A DNA stretch of 64,000 nt, taken from assembly GCA_012517325.1 (NCBI GenBank), contig JAAYVF010000130.1, positions 1 through 64,000 on the forward strand. Reading direction: 5' to 3'. Positions 2,116-61,872 of the stretch are shown piece by piece; position 1 is the stretch's first letter; each line of letters begins with the position of its first letter. Both the position numbers and the translations under genes were made by a program. This stretch comes from Myxococcales bacterium (GTDB lineage Bacteria > Lernaellota > Lernaellaia > Lernaellales > Lernaellaceae). Below the pieces are notes generated by a model. That model did not search any database, was not told where the DNA came from, and saw only the letters and a program-made list of their open reading frames with translations.

Positions 2116-4845
2116 ATGCTTAGAAGAATCATCCCCTTCATGTTGCTTCTTTTCTTCGTGGGAGCGACCGGAGCACAGGCGGCTTGGGTCGATCCCAATC
2201 TGACGAAGGAAATATCCGAAAACGGCCAGGACGATTGGGTAGGCGTTTACGTCGTACTCCAAGACCAGGTCGATCTGCGCGGCCTGTTGGCCGAACTGAA
2301 AGAAGAAAACGCCAGCCTCGCCCGCCGGCACTACGAAGTGATTACGGCGTTGCAGGAAAAAGCGGCGGAAACCCAGCCGGAATTTCTGAGCGAGATGCGC
2401 TCGGCCAAGGCCGCGAATCTGGTGAAGAGCATTCACCCCTTCTGGATCGCCAACGCGGTGGCGCTGACCATCAAGCCGACGTTCCTGAACGAATTGAAAG
2501 ATCACCCGGACATCAGCTCGATTTTCCTGGATTACCAGATCGAATTGATCACGCCGGTGGCGGTGAAAAGCTCCGCGGCGGCCGGCAAGGGCGTTGAAAA
2601 CGGCATCACCGTTTCGCGCGCGCCGGAACTGTGGAACATCGGCATCGACGGCACCGGCCGCCTGGCCTGCGACCAGGACACCGGCGCCGATAGCACGCAC
2701 CCGGCGTTCGGTAGCCGTTGGCGCGGCAATGACGCGGGCGTCACCCCGGCGGAAGCCTGGTTCGATCCGGTCTACAACGAAACCACCCCGTCCGACTCCG
2801 GCCAGCACGGCACCCACACCCTGGGCACCATCCTGGGCGACGACGGCGGCAGCAACCAGATCGGCATGGCGCCGGGCGCGAAATGGATCGGCGCCAAGAC
2901 GATCGACACCCCGGGCGGCAACATCTTCACCGACGCGGTCGCCGCGTTCGAATGGGCGGCGGATCCGGACGAAAATCCGAGCACCATGGACGACGTTCCC
3001 GACGTGGTCAATAATTCGTGGGGCTTGTCCCAGAGCTATTACGGTTCCTGCCGCAACGACTTCAACGCCTCGATCGTCGGCTGCGAGGCGGCCGGCGTGA
3101 CCGTGGTGTTCGCGGCCGGCAACGAAGGATCGAGTTCGCGAACCCTGCGTTCGCCGGGCAACCAGATCATGAGCGACGTGCAGGTCTTCTCGATCGCCGC
3201 CCTGAACCAGGACGGCACGACCGCCGCGAGCTTCTCCAGCCGTGGTCCGTCGGATTGCGACGGCACGACGATCAAACCCGAAGTCTCCGCGGTCGGCGTC
3301 GACGTGCGCAGCGCCATGCCGGGTGGCGGCTACCAACTGATGAGCGGCACCTCGATGGCGACCCCGCACGTCGCCGGCGCGGTGGTTCTGCTCAAGCAGG
3401 CCTACCCGGAAGCCACTCCGGAAGACATCAAGACCGCGCTGTACATGTCGGCCGTCGACCTGGGCACCGCGGGCGAGGATAACACCTTCGGCCGCGGTCG
3501 CATCGACATGATCGAGGCCTACAACTGGCTGACCGTCCACATGATCACCCCGGACGGCCGCATCGTGCTGGATCGCGACGGCTACTACAGCTGCGACGAC
3601 ATCATCACCATCACCGTGACCGACGAGGATCTGACCGGCGCAAGCATCAACGTGAACGTCGCCAGCACCAGCGTGCCGGCGGGCATCACCGTCGCTTTGG
3701 CCGAAACCTCCAACGCGCACATCTACCGCGGCACCGTGACGACCGTCGCGGCGGCCGATCTCGATCTGGCCGACGGCGACACGATCACCGCCACCTACAT
3801 CGACGCGAATGACGGCAACGGGCACACCAACGTGACCAAGACCGACACGGCCACCGCCGATTGCCTCGCGCCGACCTTCGCGGGCCTGCAATCCGCCACC
3901 CCGGGCGACTACCAGGTCGTCCTGGGCTGGAACGCCGCGTCCGACCTCAACCCGGTCGTTTATTACATCTATCGTTCGCTGACTTCCGGCGTCTACGCTT
4001 TTGACACCCCGTTGGCTTCAACCAGCGCGCTGACCTACACCGATGAAACCGCCGAAAACGGCACCACCTACTACTATGTGGTGCGCGCGGCCGACACCGT
4101 GGGCAACGAAGACGACAACACCATCGAACTCGACGCCCTGCCCGTCGGCCCGGACCGCCTCTTCACCGAGGATTGGGATTCCAAGGCCATCGGCGACTGG
4201 GAAATCGTCAACGGCGGTTGCAGCGGCACCTGGACGGTCGACAACCCCGGCGAGCGCTCCTCGCCCTATTGGCAGGACAACTTCGTGATCGCCGACTGCT
4301 CGACCTGCATCTTCGGCAACTTCGACGATTACCTGACCTCTCCGAGCATCGATACGCGCCACTACACCGATCTCGAACTGCGCTATTCGCACGAGTATTG
4401 GAAGGGCGGCCTGTTTGAAACGGTGATCGTCGACATCTCCGCCGACAACGGCACCACCTGGACCCAACTGAAAAAATACAACGACGACGCGGAAGGCGAG
4501 GAAGCGCTGACGCTGCCCGCCACCGTCGAGGGCCGGGCTCACTTCAAGTTCCGCTATCACTACGGCGCCAGCGCCCTGATGGGCTACTTCTGGGGCATCG
4601 ACAACATCGAAGTGACCGGTTGGCCCGACGGCACCGGCGATGACGATGACGACGACGATACGGCTCCGGATGACGATGACGACGACAACGACGACGCCAG
4701 CCCGGATGACGACGACACCACCGGCGACGACGATGCCGGCGATGACGATGTCGCCGACGACGACGCGGCCGACGATGATGCCGCCGATGATGACAACGAC
4801 AGCGGCGACGACGACGACAACGACGATTCCGGCTGCGGTTGCTGA
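2116..4845 (+). CDS. Secreted S8 (subtilisin-like) serine protease with Asp-rich SGCGC C-terminal tail
   Basis: 909 residues. A signal peptide (1-22, cut after AQA) is followed by an inhibitor-I9-like propeptide region (about 35-145). The catalytic triad of clan SB is visible: D188 in DTGAD, H231 in HGTHT, and S413 in SGTSMATPHVAG, with the oxyanion N336 in AAGNEG. A fibronectin-III-like region (about 590-680) and a jelly-roll-like module (about 685-838) follow. From about 840 the protein is nearly all Asp with Ala/Asn/Ser and ends DDSGCGC. It should be exported and probably cell-surface bound or released. The same tail occurs on the GPI-PLD-like protein at 59059, which suggests a shared sorting or anchoring signal. 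It has its own promoter and terminator. Confidence 0.92.
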   Translation: MLRRIIPFMLLLFFVGATGAQAAWVDPNLTKEISENGQDDWVGVYVVLQDQVDLRGLLAELKEENASLARRHYEVITALQEKAAETQPEFLSEMRSAKAANLVKSIHPFWIANAVALTIKPTFLNELKDHPDISSIFLDYQIELITPVAVKSSAAAGKGVENGITVSRAPELWNIGIDGTGRLACDQDTGADSTHPAFGSRWRGNDAGVTPAEAWFDPVYNETTPSDSGQHGTHTLGTILGDDGGSNQIGMAPGAKWIGAKTIDTPGGNIFTDAVAAFEWAADPDENPSTMDDVPDVVNNSWGLSQSYYGSCRNDFNASIVGCEAAGVTVVFAAGNEGSSSRTLRSPGNQIMSDVQVFSIAALNQDGTTAASFSSRGPSDCDGTTIKPEVSAVGVDVRSAMPGGGYQLMSGTSMATPHVAGAVVLLKQAYPEATPEDIKTALYMSAVDLGTAGEDNTFGRGRIDMIEAYNWLTVHMITPDGRIVLDRDGYYSCDDIITITVTDEDLTGASINVNVASTSVPAGITVALAETSNAHIYRGTVTTVAAADLDLADGDTITATYIDANDGNGHTNVTKTDTATADCLAPTFAGLQSATPGDYQVVLGWNAASDLNPVVYYIYRSLTSGVYAFDTPLASTSALTYTDETAENGTTYYYVVRAADTVGNEDDNTIELDALPVGPDRLFTEDWDSKAIGDWEIVNGGCSGTWTVDNPGERSSPYWQDNFVIADCSTCIFGNFDDYLTSPSIDTRHYTDLELRYSHEYWKGGLFETVIVDISADNGTTWTQLKKYNDDAEGEEALTLPATVEGRAHFKFRYHYGASALMGYFWGIDNIEVTGWPDGTGDDDDDDDTAPDDDDDDNDDASPDDDDTTGDDDAGDDDVADDDAADDDAADDDNDSGDDDDNDDSGCGC

Positions 4846-4870
4846 TAAAACCGCGCTACCGTTGAAACAA

Positions 4871-4902
4871 AAGGCCGTCCCCTTCGGGGGGCGGCCTTTT
4901 TC
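4871..4902 (+). terminator. Rho-independent terminator after the subtilase gene
   Basis: Arms AAGGCCG and CGGCCTT plus inner C/G pairs form a strong hairpin, followed by TTTTTCTT. It begins 25 bases after the stop codon. Confidence 0.85.
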
Positions 4903-4931: not shown

Positions 4932-5723
4932 TTATTGCGGTTGGTCGGCGATCAAAGTCGGTTCCGGGGATGAAATTTCGGGCTCGGCCAGTTTTTCATG
5001 CCGAATCCACCAAATGGCGACTCCGGTCAGTAGAACCAGCAATCCTTCCGCAACCCAGATATTGGCGAGTTTCATCGCGGTGACCGCGACCAGATTCAAC
5101 AAGCCGTGGGCGGCGATCGCCGCCAGCCACCAGCGAACGGCGCGCCGGCCGGCCCGAACCGCCCGCAGAACGAGCAAGGTGAACGCAATGTGGGCGAAGG
5201 TGGCCAGGATTCTTTCCACGCTGCCGACCAGCGGCATGTAGAGCGGCAGCACTTCCAGTTGCGCCCGGACCTCCTGGACGGCCGCCGGCAATTTCGCCAC
5301 GGGCGCGAACAACAGGTACAGGTTGCCGATCATCGAGCCGAAGCCGAGGAACAGCATTTCCATACCGCTGTGCCCGAGGCCGAAAAACACGCCGTTGTGC
5401 CAGCGATGCGGCGGTTTCAAGATATACCGCAGCACCAGATAACGGCCGCTTTCTTCAAACAGACCGGCGGTGAAGCACAGCATGACCAGCCACGACCATT
5501 CGATCACGGGGCTGCTTTTGATCCAATCCGCCAAAAAATGCGAAGCGAGCTGAACCGCCGGGACGCGGGTCATGATCTGAAAGACGAAAAAAGTCACGTA
5601 CCCGAGGATGAAATAAAGCCACTTCCCGTCGGTTTTCTTACGCCAGATAATCCCAGCGACGATCGGGAAAAGCAGATTGAATAAACCGACCAGGACCAGC
5701 GTGACGATCAGCGGAATATTCAT
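4932..5723 (-). CDS. YhfC-type (PF10086-like) intramembrane metalloprotease family protein
   Basis: About 263 residues with roughly seven hydrophobic membrane segments. Conserved-looking motifs FEESGRY, GLGHSGMEM and a later HIAFTLLV carry Glu and His residues inside membrane segments, as in the YhfC family, which is thought to be related to CAAX/Bce-type intramembrane proteases. I chose the ATG at 5723 (protein begins MNIPLIV) because AAGGGGA lies 11 bases upstream; an upstream start at 5780 would add 19 polar residues. The substrate is unknown. It is divergent from mutY and has no obvious operon partner. Confidence 0.7.
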   Translation of the reverse strand: MNIPLIVTLVLVGLFNLLFPIVAGIIWRKKTDGKWLYFILGYVTFFVFQIMTRVPAVQLASHFLADWIKSSPVIEWSWLVMLCFTAGLFEESGRYLVLRYILKPPHRWHNGVFFGLGHSGMEMLFLGFGSMIGNLYLLFAPVAKLPAAVQEVRAQLEVLPLYMPLVGSVERILATFAHIAFTLLVLRAVRAGRRAVRWWLAAIAAHGLLNLVAVTAMKLANIWVAEGLLVLLTGVAIWWIRHEKLAEPEISSPEPTLIADQPQ

Positions 5724-5873
5724 GGGCCGAAAAATCCCCTTGGTTTCGTCCGCTTTAGCACGATTGACCTCCCCCGGCAATTTGGAATACCCGAGCTATA
5801 TCTCCAACCCGCGTGAGCTTTGAGCGATATTCCGGATGAAGGCCGGGGCCGATCGGGTTATATTAAAGGCGAA

Positions 5874-59058: not shown

Positions 59059-61872
59059 TCAACAGCCGCATCCCGAATCGTCGTCGTCATCGTCATCGTC
59101 CCCGGACGGCGGCGAAATGTCGTCGTTGTCATCGTCATTCACGGCGTCATCGTCGGCGGAGTCGTCGTTGTCGTCGTCATCCACGGCGTCATCGTCGGCG
59201 GAGTCGTCGTTGTCGTCGTCATCGTCGTCGGCCGTGCCCGACTCGACGGTGAGCGCGGCGGCCAGCGCGGCCTCGCCGAAGCGGTTCGTCAGCCGCAAAT
59301 CGTAGGCGCCCGGTTCGGTGTCCGCTGGAACGGCGAGCGTGAATTCCAGCGTTTCCGCGTCGAGTGCGACGATTTCCTCGCCGGTCAGCAGACTGTCATT
59401 GCGTGCGAGCCGCACGCCGAGGCCTTTATCGAGCAGCCGCTCGCCGGTCAGTGTGAAGGTCAGGGTTTCGCCCGCTGTCGCGCGATCAGGGTCGAGCGCG
59501 GTGACCGCCGGCACGGGAGGCGGCACGACGACCACCCGGCCGTTCGTGCGAGCATCGTCCGTCGCATGACGCGCTCCGAAAACCGCGTCGGTCAGTCCGT
59601 CGCCGTCGTAATCGAGGAAGGCGATTTCGTTGCCGAACAAGGATTGCGCGGTCTCGTAAGGGATCGCCCAATCGGCGCTGTCCGGGCTGCCGTCGATTTC
59701 ACCGGTTGGGAACGACTCACCGCCGAGATAAAGACGCGCCGCGCCGGCTTCGAATCCCGCGTCGGTCTGGCGATAAGGTTCGGTGAGCCACAGGTCGTCG
59801 ATGCCGTCCTGGTTGTAGTCGACGACGCCGATTCGCCAGCCAAGGCGCGCGCCGGTCTGATCGTTGCGGAACAAGGCGGCCGGCGTCAGCTCGTCGAGAT
59901 TCAGATCGCCGTCGAGATCCGCGGGGTCCAGCAACCAGACCGCGCCCCCCTGCCGGGCCGATGCGGCCGAATGCGTTGAGCCAGCCAGCGCCAGATAGGT
60001 TTTATCGTCGCCGTAGGGCGCGACGATGGCAAACTCGGCGCCGGTCTGTTCGAGGGAATAGGTTCCGGCGATCGTGAACGCCGGCGCGAAATCGGCCGCT
60101 TGATAGGCATAAAGCCGGCCGGCGCTCAAGGCCGAGCCTGCGTTGAATTTCGGCGCGCCGACTAGCAGGAACCGGCCGGCGTCACCCAGGTCGACCGCCG
60201 CCAACCGATAGCCGAACCAATCGTAGTCGTTTTCGCCGTATTGCACCCAAGCCGCGTCGTCCGGCGAAAGCGGCGCGCCACCGGTCAGGTTCTGGCTGGA
60301 CAGAAAAACCGCGACCTGCCCGCGTTGATAACCTTCGACCGCCGCGAACGGCGAACCGATCAACAGATCGCCGTAACCGTCGCCGTCGAGATCACTGCCC
60401 GCCAGTGCCCAGCCGAGATTGTTGCGGTGCTGCGCCGATTCGATGATCAAATCCGGCTCGGCGGCAAGCCCTTTTCCCGTACCGAAATAAACGGCGACCG
60501 CGCCGTGATACGACAGGTCGTCGGCTCCCGTGCTCGGCGCCGAAACCGCCAGGTCGTCACGGCCGTCGCGGTTTAGGTCCACCACGGCCAGGCTCCAACC
60601 GAAGCGCCCGGCGAGAATCGTTCCCGTCAGTTCGATATCCGCCGGCGAGGCGGAAAGATCGCGGATCTCGTGGCCGTCGATCGACACGCCGGAGTAGATG
60701 ACCCGGACGCGGCCGATTTGCGGCTCGCCGGGTCCGCCGTCACCGGGCGAGCCCATCGCCAAATCGTCCCGGCCGTCCTGATTGAAATCGCCGACCGCCA
60801 GGCTGGACCCGAGGTAGCCGTAGGGCGTATCGGCGACGAACGTCAGCGTGCGATCCATCCCTTCGACCTCGCGCAGGACGGCGTCATTTTTTTGCGGGGC
60901 GGGGTTCAAGGCGCCGTGAAAGATCACCCCGCGCGCCGTGTGTTCCGCGCGAAGAGCAATTTCACCGCGCGCTTGCATCGCCCGGCCGATTACCATCCAG
61001 CGGCGCAAGGAGCGACCGTCCTCCGCCGGCGAAAGCGCCGGAAGCGCCAGGGAATCGCCCGCGCCGTTCTGCAGGCGATCGATCAACCCGATCCAGCGCC
61101 AGGCGGTCTGATTGCCCATGTCGTCGAGGCCGCCGGCGAAAAAATCCTGGTACTGCTCCGGCTCGAACACCGTCAGCAGCGCGAAGAGATCGGCGGTCGA
61201 CGCCGCCAGCGCGCGCAACGCCAGCGAGCCCAGATACATCAGATTCATCGCGGTTTCGAGTATTTCCGGTGTAACGCGATCGTAGCCGAGGTTCTGATAC
61301 ACCTGGGCCAGGTCCGCCGTCGGCACATACCAATCGGTGAGGTATGAAAAATCATTGGCGCGGACGATGAACGCTTCGCCGCCGATGTCGCCGTAGTGGT
61401 GGGCCAGGTCGAAGTGGTCGGGAAATTCGAGTTCGCCCATCACGCCCAGAAAGCCCTCTTCGTAGCTCTGCTCGTGATGAGTCGTGAATTGCGTGTCCGC
61501 CACGACGTGCGCCAGGAATCCCAGCAGAAAAACCGCCGTCTGTCGGGTTTCCTCGTCCCACGGTTGCGGGTAAGTCGCCCGCACGTAATCGGCGGCGGCT
61601 TCGACCATCGATGCCGAATGTGCGGCCTCGGCCTCTGCGGTATAGCCGACGAGCCAACCCCAGTCGGGAAATCCCGCGCCCGCCAGCAGCGCGCCGTTAC
61701 CGGCGTCCAGCCATTCCTCGTATTCCGGGTAATCCGGATCGGCGAACACCCAGGCGGCGCGCTGGCAAACATCGCCGTGCGTCAGCACACCGCAAGCCTG
61801 CGCCGCGGGAAGCGAAAAAAGCAGAACGAACGAAAACAGCGAAACCAGGGCGATCGTTTTCTTTTGGAACAT
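59059..61872 (-). CDS. Secreted GPI-phospholipase-D-like protein with FG-GAP propeller and SGCGC tail
   Basis: 937 residues from ATG at 61872 (AAGGA eight bases upstream). The signal peptide is followed by ACGVLTHGDVCQRA; the N-terminus CG(x)xTH resembles mature human GPI-PLD (from memory). A zinc-dependent phospholipase C/S1-P1-type helical domain (about 25-300) has FLAHVVADTQFTTHHEQSYEEGF, with several histidines. FG-GAP integrin-like repeats follow (about 340-750; DFNQDGRDDLAMGSPGD, DLNRDGRDDLAVSAPS, DLDGDGYGDLLIGSPF, DYDGDGLTDAVFG). Then comes an IPT/TIG-type strand domain and an Asp tract with two 14-residue repeats, ending DDDDDDSGCGC. This domain order resembles GPI-PLD. It probably acts on phospholipids or glycolipids outside the cell. 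Confidence 0.85.
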   Translation of the reverse strand: MFQKKTIALVSLFSFVLLFSLPAAQACGVLTHGDVCQRAAWVFADPDYPEYEEWLDAGNGALLAGAGFPDWGWLVGYTAEAEAAHSASMVEAAADYVRATYPQPWDEETRQTAVFLLGFLAHVVADTQFTTHHEQSYEEGFLGVMGELEFPDHFDLAHHYGDIGGEAFIVRANDFSYLTDWYVPTADLAQVYQNLGYDRVTPEILETAMNLMYLGSLALRALAASTADLFALLTVFEPEQYQDFFAGGLDDMGNQTAWRWIGLIDRLQNGAGDSLALPALSPAEDGRSLRRWMVIGRAMQARGEIALRAEHTARGVIFHGALNPAPQKNDAVLREVEGMDRTLTFVADTPYGYLGSSLAVGDFNQDGRDDLAMGSPGDGGPGEPQIGRVRVIYSGVSIDGHEIRDLSASPADIELTGTILAGRFGWSLAVVDLNRDGRDDLAVSAPSTGADDLSYHGAVAVYFGTGKGLAAEPDLIIESAQHRNNLGWALAGSDLDGDGYGDLLIGSPFAAVEGYQRGQVAVFLSSQNLTGGAPLSPDDAAWVQYGENDYDWFGYRLAAVDLGDAGRFLLVGAPKFNAGSALSAGRLYAYQAADFAPAFTIAGTYSLEQTGAEFAIVAPYGDDKTYLALAGSTHSAASARQGGAVWLLDPADLDGDLNLDELTPAALFRNDQTGARLGWRIGVVDYNQDGIDDLWLTEPYRQTDAGFEAGAARLYLGGESFPTGEIDGSPDSADWAIPYETAQSLFGNEIAFLDYDGDGLTDAVFGARHATDDARTNGRVVVVPPPVPAVTALDPDRATAGETLTFTLTGERLLDKGLGVRLARNDSLLTGEEIVALDAETLEFTLAVPADTEPGAYDLRLTNRFGEAALAAALTVESGTADDDDDDNDDSADDDAVDDDDNDDSADDDAVNDDDNDDISPPSGDDDDDDDDSGCGC

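Follow-up and report, generated by a model that had tools for sequence, protein, structure and literature searches.

An Asp-rich GCGC tail, resembling a MYXO-CTERM signal without the helix, on exported proteins of the proposed phylum Ca. Lernaellota

The closest described counterpart of the tail reported here is the MYXO-CTERM signal (TIGR03901) of Myxococcota, which is handled by the protease myxosortase. Its signature has been described as GCGC, whose Cys is required for cleavage and anchoring; the same authors propose a model in which the Cys receives a lipid and myxosortase cleaves immediately distal to it, and they favour Lgt as the still unidentified lipidating enzyme (PMC11980579). JDVT-CTERM, Synerg-CTERM and other Cys-containing CTERM signals, as well as PEP-CTERM, GlyGly-CTERM and LPXTG, are likewise short modular C-terminal tags of exported proteins, and JDVT-CTERM and Synerg-CTERM share an invariant Cys with the tail. 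However, all of these signals are tripartite, with a helix and a basic cluster, and each has a processing protease as its partner. In Bacteroidetes lipoproteins, the surface-export signal (LES) consists of acidic residues beside the lipidated Cys (PMC5080379). Could a MYXO-CTERM-like tag do without its membrane helix? Here, we describe a tail that, judged from sequence, may be a helix-less ("pre-cleaved") MYXO-CTERM sorting signal, with its terminal Cys lipidated and the protein anchored at the surface (probability about 0.5).

The window is a stretch of 64,000 nucleotides from a genome of 5.25 Mb in 134 contigs (the source genome, G000). The first-pass annotation had claimed that a subtilase and an unrelated GPI-PLD-like protein in it share an Asp tract and an identical DSGCGC end, and both C-termini bear this out, the second protein being a phospholipase C/FG-GAP protein. 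The Asp-rich tails, of 68 residues (4639-4845) and 56 residues (59059-59229), respectively, are both closed by DSGCGC-stop. The features are as follows.

2116..4845, + strand: subtilase (S8) gene with the tail, 909 aa (PF00082, E 2.5e-48)
2116..2181, + strand: predicted Sec signal peptide MLRRIIPFMLLLFFVGATGAQA of the subtilase, without lipobox (heuristic only)
4639..4827, + strand: Asp-rich low-complexity stalk of the subtilase, 63 codons
4828..4845, + strand: SGCGC-stop terminal motif of the subtilase; GCGC is the MYXO-CTERM-type signature
4869..4900, + strand: intrinsic-terminator hairpin directly 3' of the subtilase stop (z -3.9, strong)
4932..5780, - strand: YhfC-family intramembrane peptidase gene, convergent with the subtilase (PF10086, E 5.9e-33)
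59059..61872, - strand: zinc-dependent phospholipase C and FG-GAP repeat gene with the tail, 937 aa (PF00882, PF01839)
61795..61872, - strand: predicted signal peptide MFQKKTIALVSLFSFVLLFSLPAAQA of the phospholipase C/FG-GAP protein (heuristic only)
59077..59229, - strand: Asp-rich stalk of the phospholipase C/FG-GAP protein, 51 codons
59059..59076, - strand: SGCGC-stop terminal motif of the phospholipase C/FG-GAP protein

Since a strong terminator hairpin follows the subtilase stop, the gene end is real, with no downstream extension missing. The convergent YhfC-family gene and the subtilase are separated by 87 bases; we take this family (PF10086) to be a distant relative of the CAAX/CPBP proteases. 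Its assignment was confirmed, yet it adjoins one carrier only and is no more than a possible cognate enzyme of the tail.

In the source genome, D-x-S-G-C-G-C-stop matches 16 times against 0 for the reversed control, and GGCGC-stop 81 times against 20; 75 GGCGC-stop frames, read one by one, comprise 71 credible genes and 4 short chance frames. About 70 proteins have the exact GCGC-stop end, almost all behind an Asp-rich tract, and reversed-pattern controls for this Asp-linked form are near zero. We also took an unbiased sample of 1.26 Mb, which includes the window and has 836 called genes, and counted a C-terminus as Asp-rich if Asp made up 25% or more of residues -44 to -5. Cys occurs in the last four residues of 23 of the 24 Asp-rich C-termini, compared with 32 of the 812 other genes (Fisher p 9e-29). 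A chance low-complexity ending is ruled out by the reversed-pattern controls together with this sample, from which roughly 90-140 tagged proteins can be estimated by scaling to the whole genome. The 23 sampled tails end in GCGC (11), SCGC (4), GCSC (1) or one of seven variants with single or shifted Cys (GGCN, GGCI, GGCF, GCGA twice, ACGF and GCGCG). Consequently, the exact GCGC is not essential, since about one third of the sampled Asp-rich tails end without CxC-stop. As for the identical DSGCGC end, it holds insofar as the constant part is GCGC, or a minimum of one Cys close to the end, but the preceding residue varies, as does the Asp tract in length. The sole sampled Asp-rich C-terminus without Cys (C87:53099) has a lipobox-like N-terminus.

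The proposed phylum Ca. Lernaellota corresponds to FEN-1099 (PMC13248872). The tail is present in all seven genomes of this phylum examined, with 32, 12, 21, 22, 21, 25 and 2 matches of DDxxGCGC-stop against 0 for the control. Outside the phylum, none of 283 genomes had more than two matches of a looser tail pattern, and a scan of GTDB r220 (84,980 genomes) returned FEN-1099 contigs plus single chance-like frames elsewhere; as a system, the tail was not found in any scanned genome outside Lernaellota. No published description of such a tail was found in a literature search that was thin on subscription papers and did not include the original Lernaellota description. For a phylum that is uncultured, the tail could provide a simple rule to predict which proteins make up the surface proteome.

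A hydropathy heuristic, complemented by inspection, gave a signal peptide for 61 of the 63 carriers with an upstream region to inspect; in three of these the peptide begins from a later start, and in two it is interrupted by a frameshift or an in-frame stop. The tail was thus found on further exported proteins rather than on cytoplasmic ones, and the early suggestion of a modular tail on unrelated exported proteins extends genome-wide and phylum-wide (7/7 genomes): the carriers fall into at least 34 unrelated body groups (BLAST), among them S8, C25 and M14 peptidases, phospholipase C, PKD, Kelch-like (by eye) and FG-GAP proteins. Gingipain-type C25 peptidases with a propeptide, bearing the Asp-rich GCGC tail, are found at L027 3351-6710 and L018 (- strand); in Bacteroidota, such peptidases are T9SS cargo.

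Could the tail belong to a dedicated system that involves no lipid? The Cys would then be bonded, by a disulfide or otherwise, to a surface partner or glycan, or be recognized by an outer-membrane translocon, as T9SS C-terminal domains are. The strict Cys-terminal end of most carriers, the gingipain-like C25 carriers, from a family whose Bacteroidota members use T9SS, and the YhfC intramembrane peptidase beside the window subtilase are all in its favour. However, the tail offers a low-complexity stalk only, with no conserved folded C-terminal domain, and the YhfC linkage is a single case. We regard such a system as improbable.

The tail is like MYXO-CTERM in its C-terminal Gly-Cys(-Gly-Cys) signature, in the signal peptide of its carriers, in being found on dozens of unrelated surface-type hydrolases and adhesins in a genome, and in the presence of myxosortase and T2SS in most of the tail genomes. 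It differs in having an Asp-rich stalk and in ending at the signature, without the transmembrane helix or the Arg-rich cluster. As had been remarked from the window alone, the hydrophobic helix is indeed lacking: of the 33 Asp-linked GCGC places, 32 end with the signature and have no helix downstream, only L090 running on into one, and neither a transmembrane helix nor a C-terminal Arg/Lys cluster follows the signature in the tail carriers. In the seven carriers scanned, there was no match to TIGR03901 at E up to 1, nor to any NCBIfam CTERM model, barring weak body-domain matches, in keeping with the suggestion that the tail is not in current lists. The proteins of the source genome above the TIGR03901 cut-off are tripartite ones, not helix-less tails. 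Since the helix and the basic cluster were tested and are absent, the tail is not a member of MYXO-CTERM as defined.

A mere resemblance to MYXO-CTERM, as first proposed, nevertheless understates the relation, because MYXO-CTERM proteins of the same genomes, most of which have myxosortase, share the Asp-rich GCGC. True tripartite MYXO-CTERM proteins are few per phylum genome, with TIGR03901 matches in 7/7, and they often have the Asp-rich GCGC signature followed by the helix and the Arg/Lys cluster (for example L120 and L247; one Asp-rich tripartite protein reads DDDDDDDDGCGC-VIGGGADGAGLAFAMLALGLAALAVSLRKKR). The tail is real, modular and phylum-wide, and a helix-less MYXO-CTERM-like signal is the best description of it. 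Small Cys-rich tripartite MYXO-CTERM proteins also form tandem clusters in several genera of the phylum (L240 / G000 C122:68928-70405; G003 C25:4013-4951; G001 C106:8989-9770).

The shared signature would also suit a vestige or an artefact, that is, MYXO-CTERM proteins in which a stop or frameshift removed the helix, or Asp repeats that happen to lie near a GC-rich end. However, no helix with basic cluster was found downstream of the stop as part of the gene in the 70 carriers checked; five were flagged for a downstream helix, in frames that seem to open the following gene. Loss of the helix by frameshift or stop read-through was rejected on these grounds, the stops being TGA, TAG and TAA. Moreover, no body homology was found between tripartite and helix-less proteins, and the tail occurs on about 70 proteins of one genome and in 7/7 genomes with zero reversed controls. 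An origin of this kind is highly improbable.

The myxosortase core (NF040914) scores 118 bits in the source genome, over a cut-off of 100, and is above cut-off in five of the seven phylum genomes (the source genome and four others), with a weak match in G002. The tail differs from MYXO-CTERM here too, as it is abundant in G001 without detectable myxosortase: this genome, 99% complete, gave no Mrt_core match despite 22-27 tails, which could be due to an assembly gap. The T2SS secretin GspD is matched in 7/7 genomes, above cut-off in 6/7, the G002 copy being in fragments. Given the published cut just distal to the Cys, the helix-less tail ends where myxosortase would cut. The tag would thus be encoded already trimmed, once apparently without myxosortase, with cysteine modification separated from the cleavage step; as a MYXO-CTERM-like tag without membrane helix, it suggests that proteins may be attached to the surface without the usual sorting protease.

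Unlike classical bacterial lipoproteins, none of 61 tail carriers has an N-terminal lipobox, compared with 49 of 373 other signal-peptide-like proteins (p 7e-4). In the 46 predicted lipoproteins of the sample, the D fraction directly after the lipobox Cys is raised, as in LLTAC-GGGGDDDDDSAAIDDDDD, with a mean of 0.27, whereas other exported proteins have 0.12 (p 1e-7). Long Asp-rich linkers lie right behind the lipobox Cys at G000 C25:68707-70485, C73:27304-28989, C132:35340-36989 and others. A linker of this type is also found behind an ordinary signal peptide in some relatives, including some tail carriers, and is therefore not limited to lipid-bearing cysteines. The C-terminal tail looks like a mirror image of the N-terminal lipoprotein Cys with its Asp-rich linker, and the tail Cys looks like an anchor site, because the carriers avoid the lipobox and the lipoproteins have these mirror-image linkers. 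Acidic residues beside an anchored Cys, together with the Asp-rich linker of N-terminal lipoproteins in the source genome, recall the LES lipoproteins of Bacteroidetes (PMC5080379), whereas the tail Cys is C-terminal and without lipobox, and its lipidation is putative.

Alternatively, the tail may be no anchor at all: the carriers would be freely secreted, for example by T2SS, with a stalk for solubility or Ca2+ binding and a CxC that binds metal or forms a disulfide. The absence of a helix and basic cluster would suit this, as would the many hydrolases among the carriers (S8, C25, M14, phospholipase C), which are able to act in the medium, and the release by T2SS of TraA without its MYXO-CTERM (PMC11980579). 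Against it, the tail and the N-terminal lipobox are mutually exclusive, the signature is common to the tail and tripartite MYXO-CTERM, and the single-Cys variants GGCN, GGCF and GCGA cannot make a CxC chelate or an internal disulfide. Free secretion is the less likely reading, although it is a stronger competitor than a non-lipid system.

Surface anchoring via a modified terminal Cys would accordingly rank as the likeliest function, at about even odds, and we infer that the tail serves in surface attachment and cysteine modification, as the first-pass annotation had supposed. According to the helix-less MYXO-CTERM reading, the carriers would cross the inner membrane by Sec, and the terminal cysteine would receive a lipid in the periplasm, the most likely enzyme being one of two orphan Lgt-like paralogs, with Lgt-C as the leading candidate. 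A protease step would be unnecessary for a chain that already stops at the point of the myxosortase cut. The carrier would then be moved to the outer-membrane surface by T2SS, as proposed for MYXO-CTERM, and the acidic stalk would act as a spacer and might also direct export to the surface, as the acidic LES does in lipoproteins of Bacteroidetes.

Each of the seven phylum genomes has at least three Lgt-family matches. Three such genes are located as follows.

L363 4146-4934 (G000 C7): Lgt-family gene
L364 8099-9154 (G000 C27): Lgt-family gene
L365 6571-7533 (G000 C87): Lgt-family gene

Lgt-A, which is over the TIGR00544 cut-off in the source genome, adjoins two lspA genes in tandem, while the other Lgt-family genes are not next to lspA. 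The orphans Lgt-B (7/7 genomes) and Lgt-C (6/7 genomes; clade support 100/99) are both just under this cut-off, and Lgt-C aligns with the solved E. coli Lgt (5azb, E 1e-12). Lgt-C is absent only from G004, the genome with 2 tails, which has instead an Lgt closer to the E. coli type by motifs. This correlation is weak, amounting to a single loss among seven genomes; no conserved linkage was found between Lgt-C and tail genes, nor any convincingly conserved Lgt-C neighbours. The usual substrate Cys of Lgt adjoins a signal peptide that is inserted in the membrane. The position of the tail Cys at a soluble C-terminus, not beside such a peptide, counts against the Lgt reading. That a dedicated Lgt paralog lipidates the end Cys of a soluble acidic tail, protease-independently and with no membrane span in the substrate, giving "mirror-image lipoproteins", is a tentative and rather unlikely proposal. 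The orphan paralogs are pointed to as candidates for the unknown cysteine-modifying enzyme of MYXO-CTERM. A gene for a GlpG-like rhomboid protease (L363 6251-6931, - strand) lies close to the orphan Lgt-C gene in the source genome.
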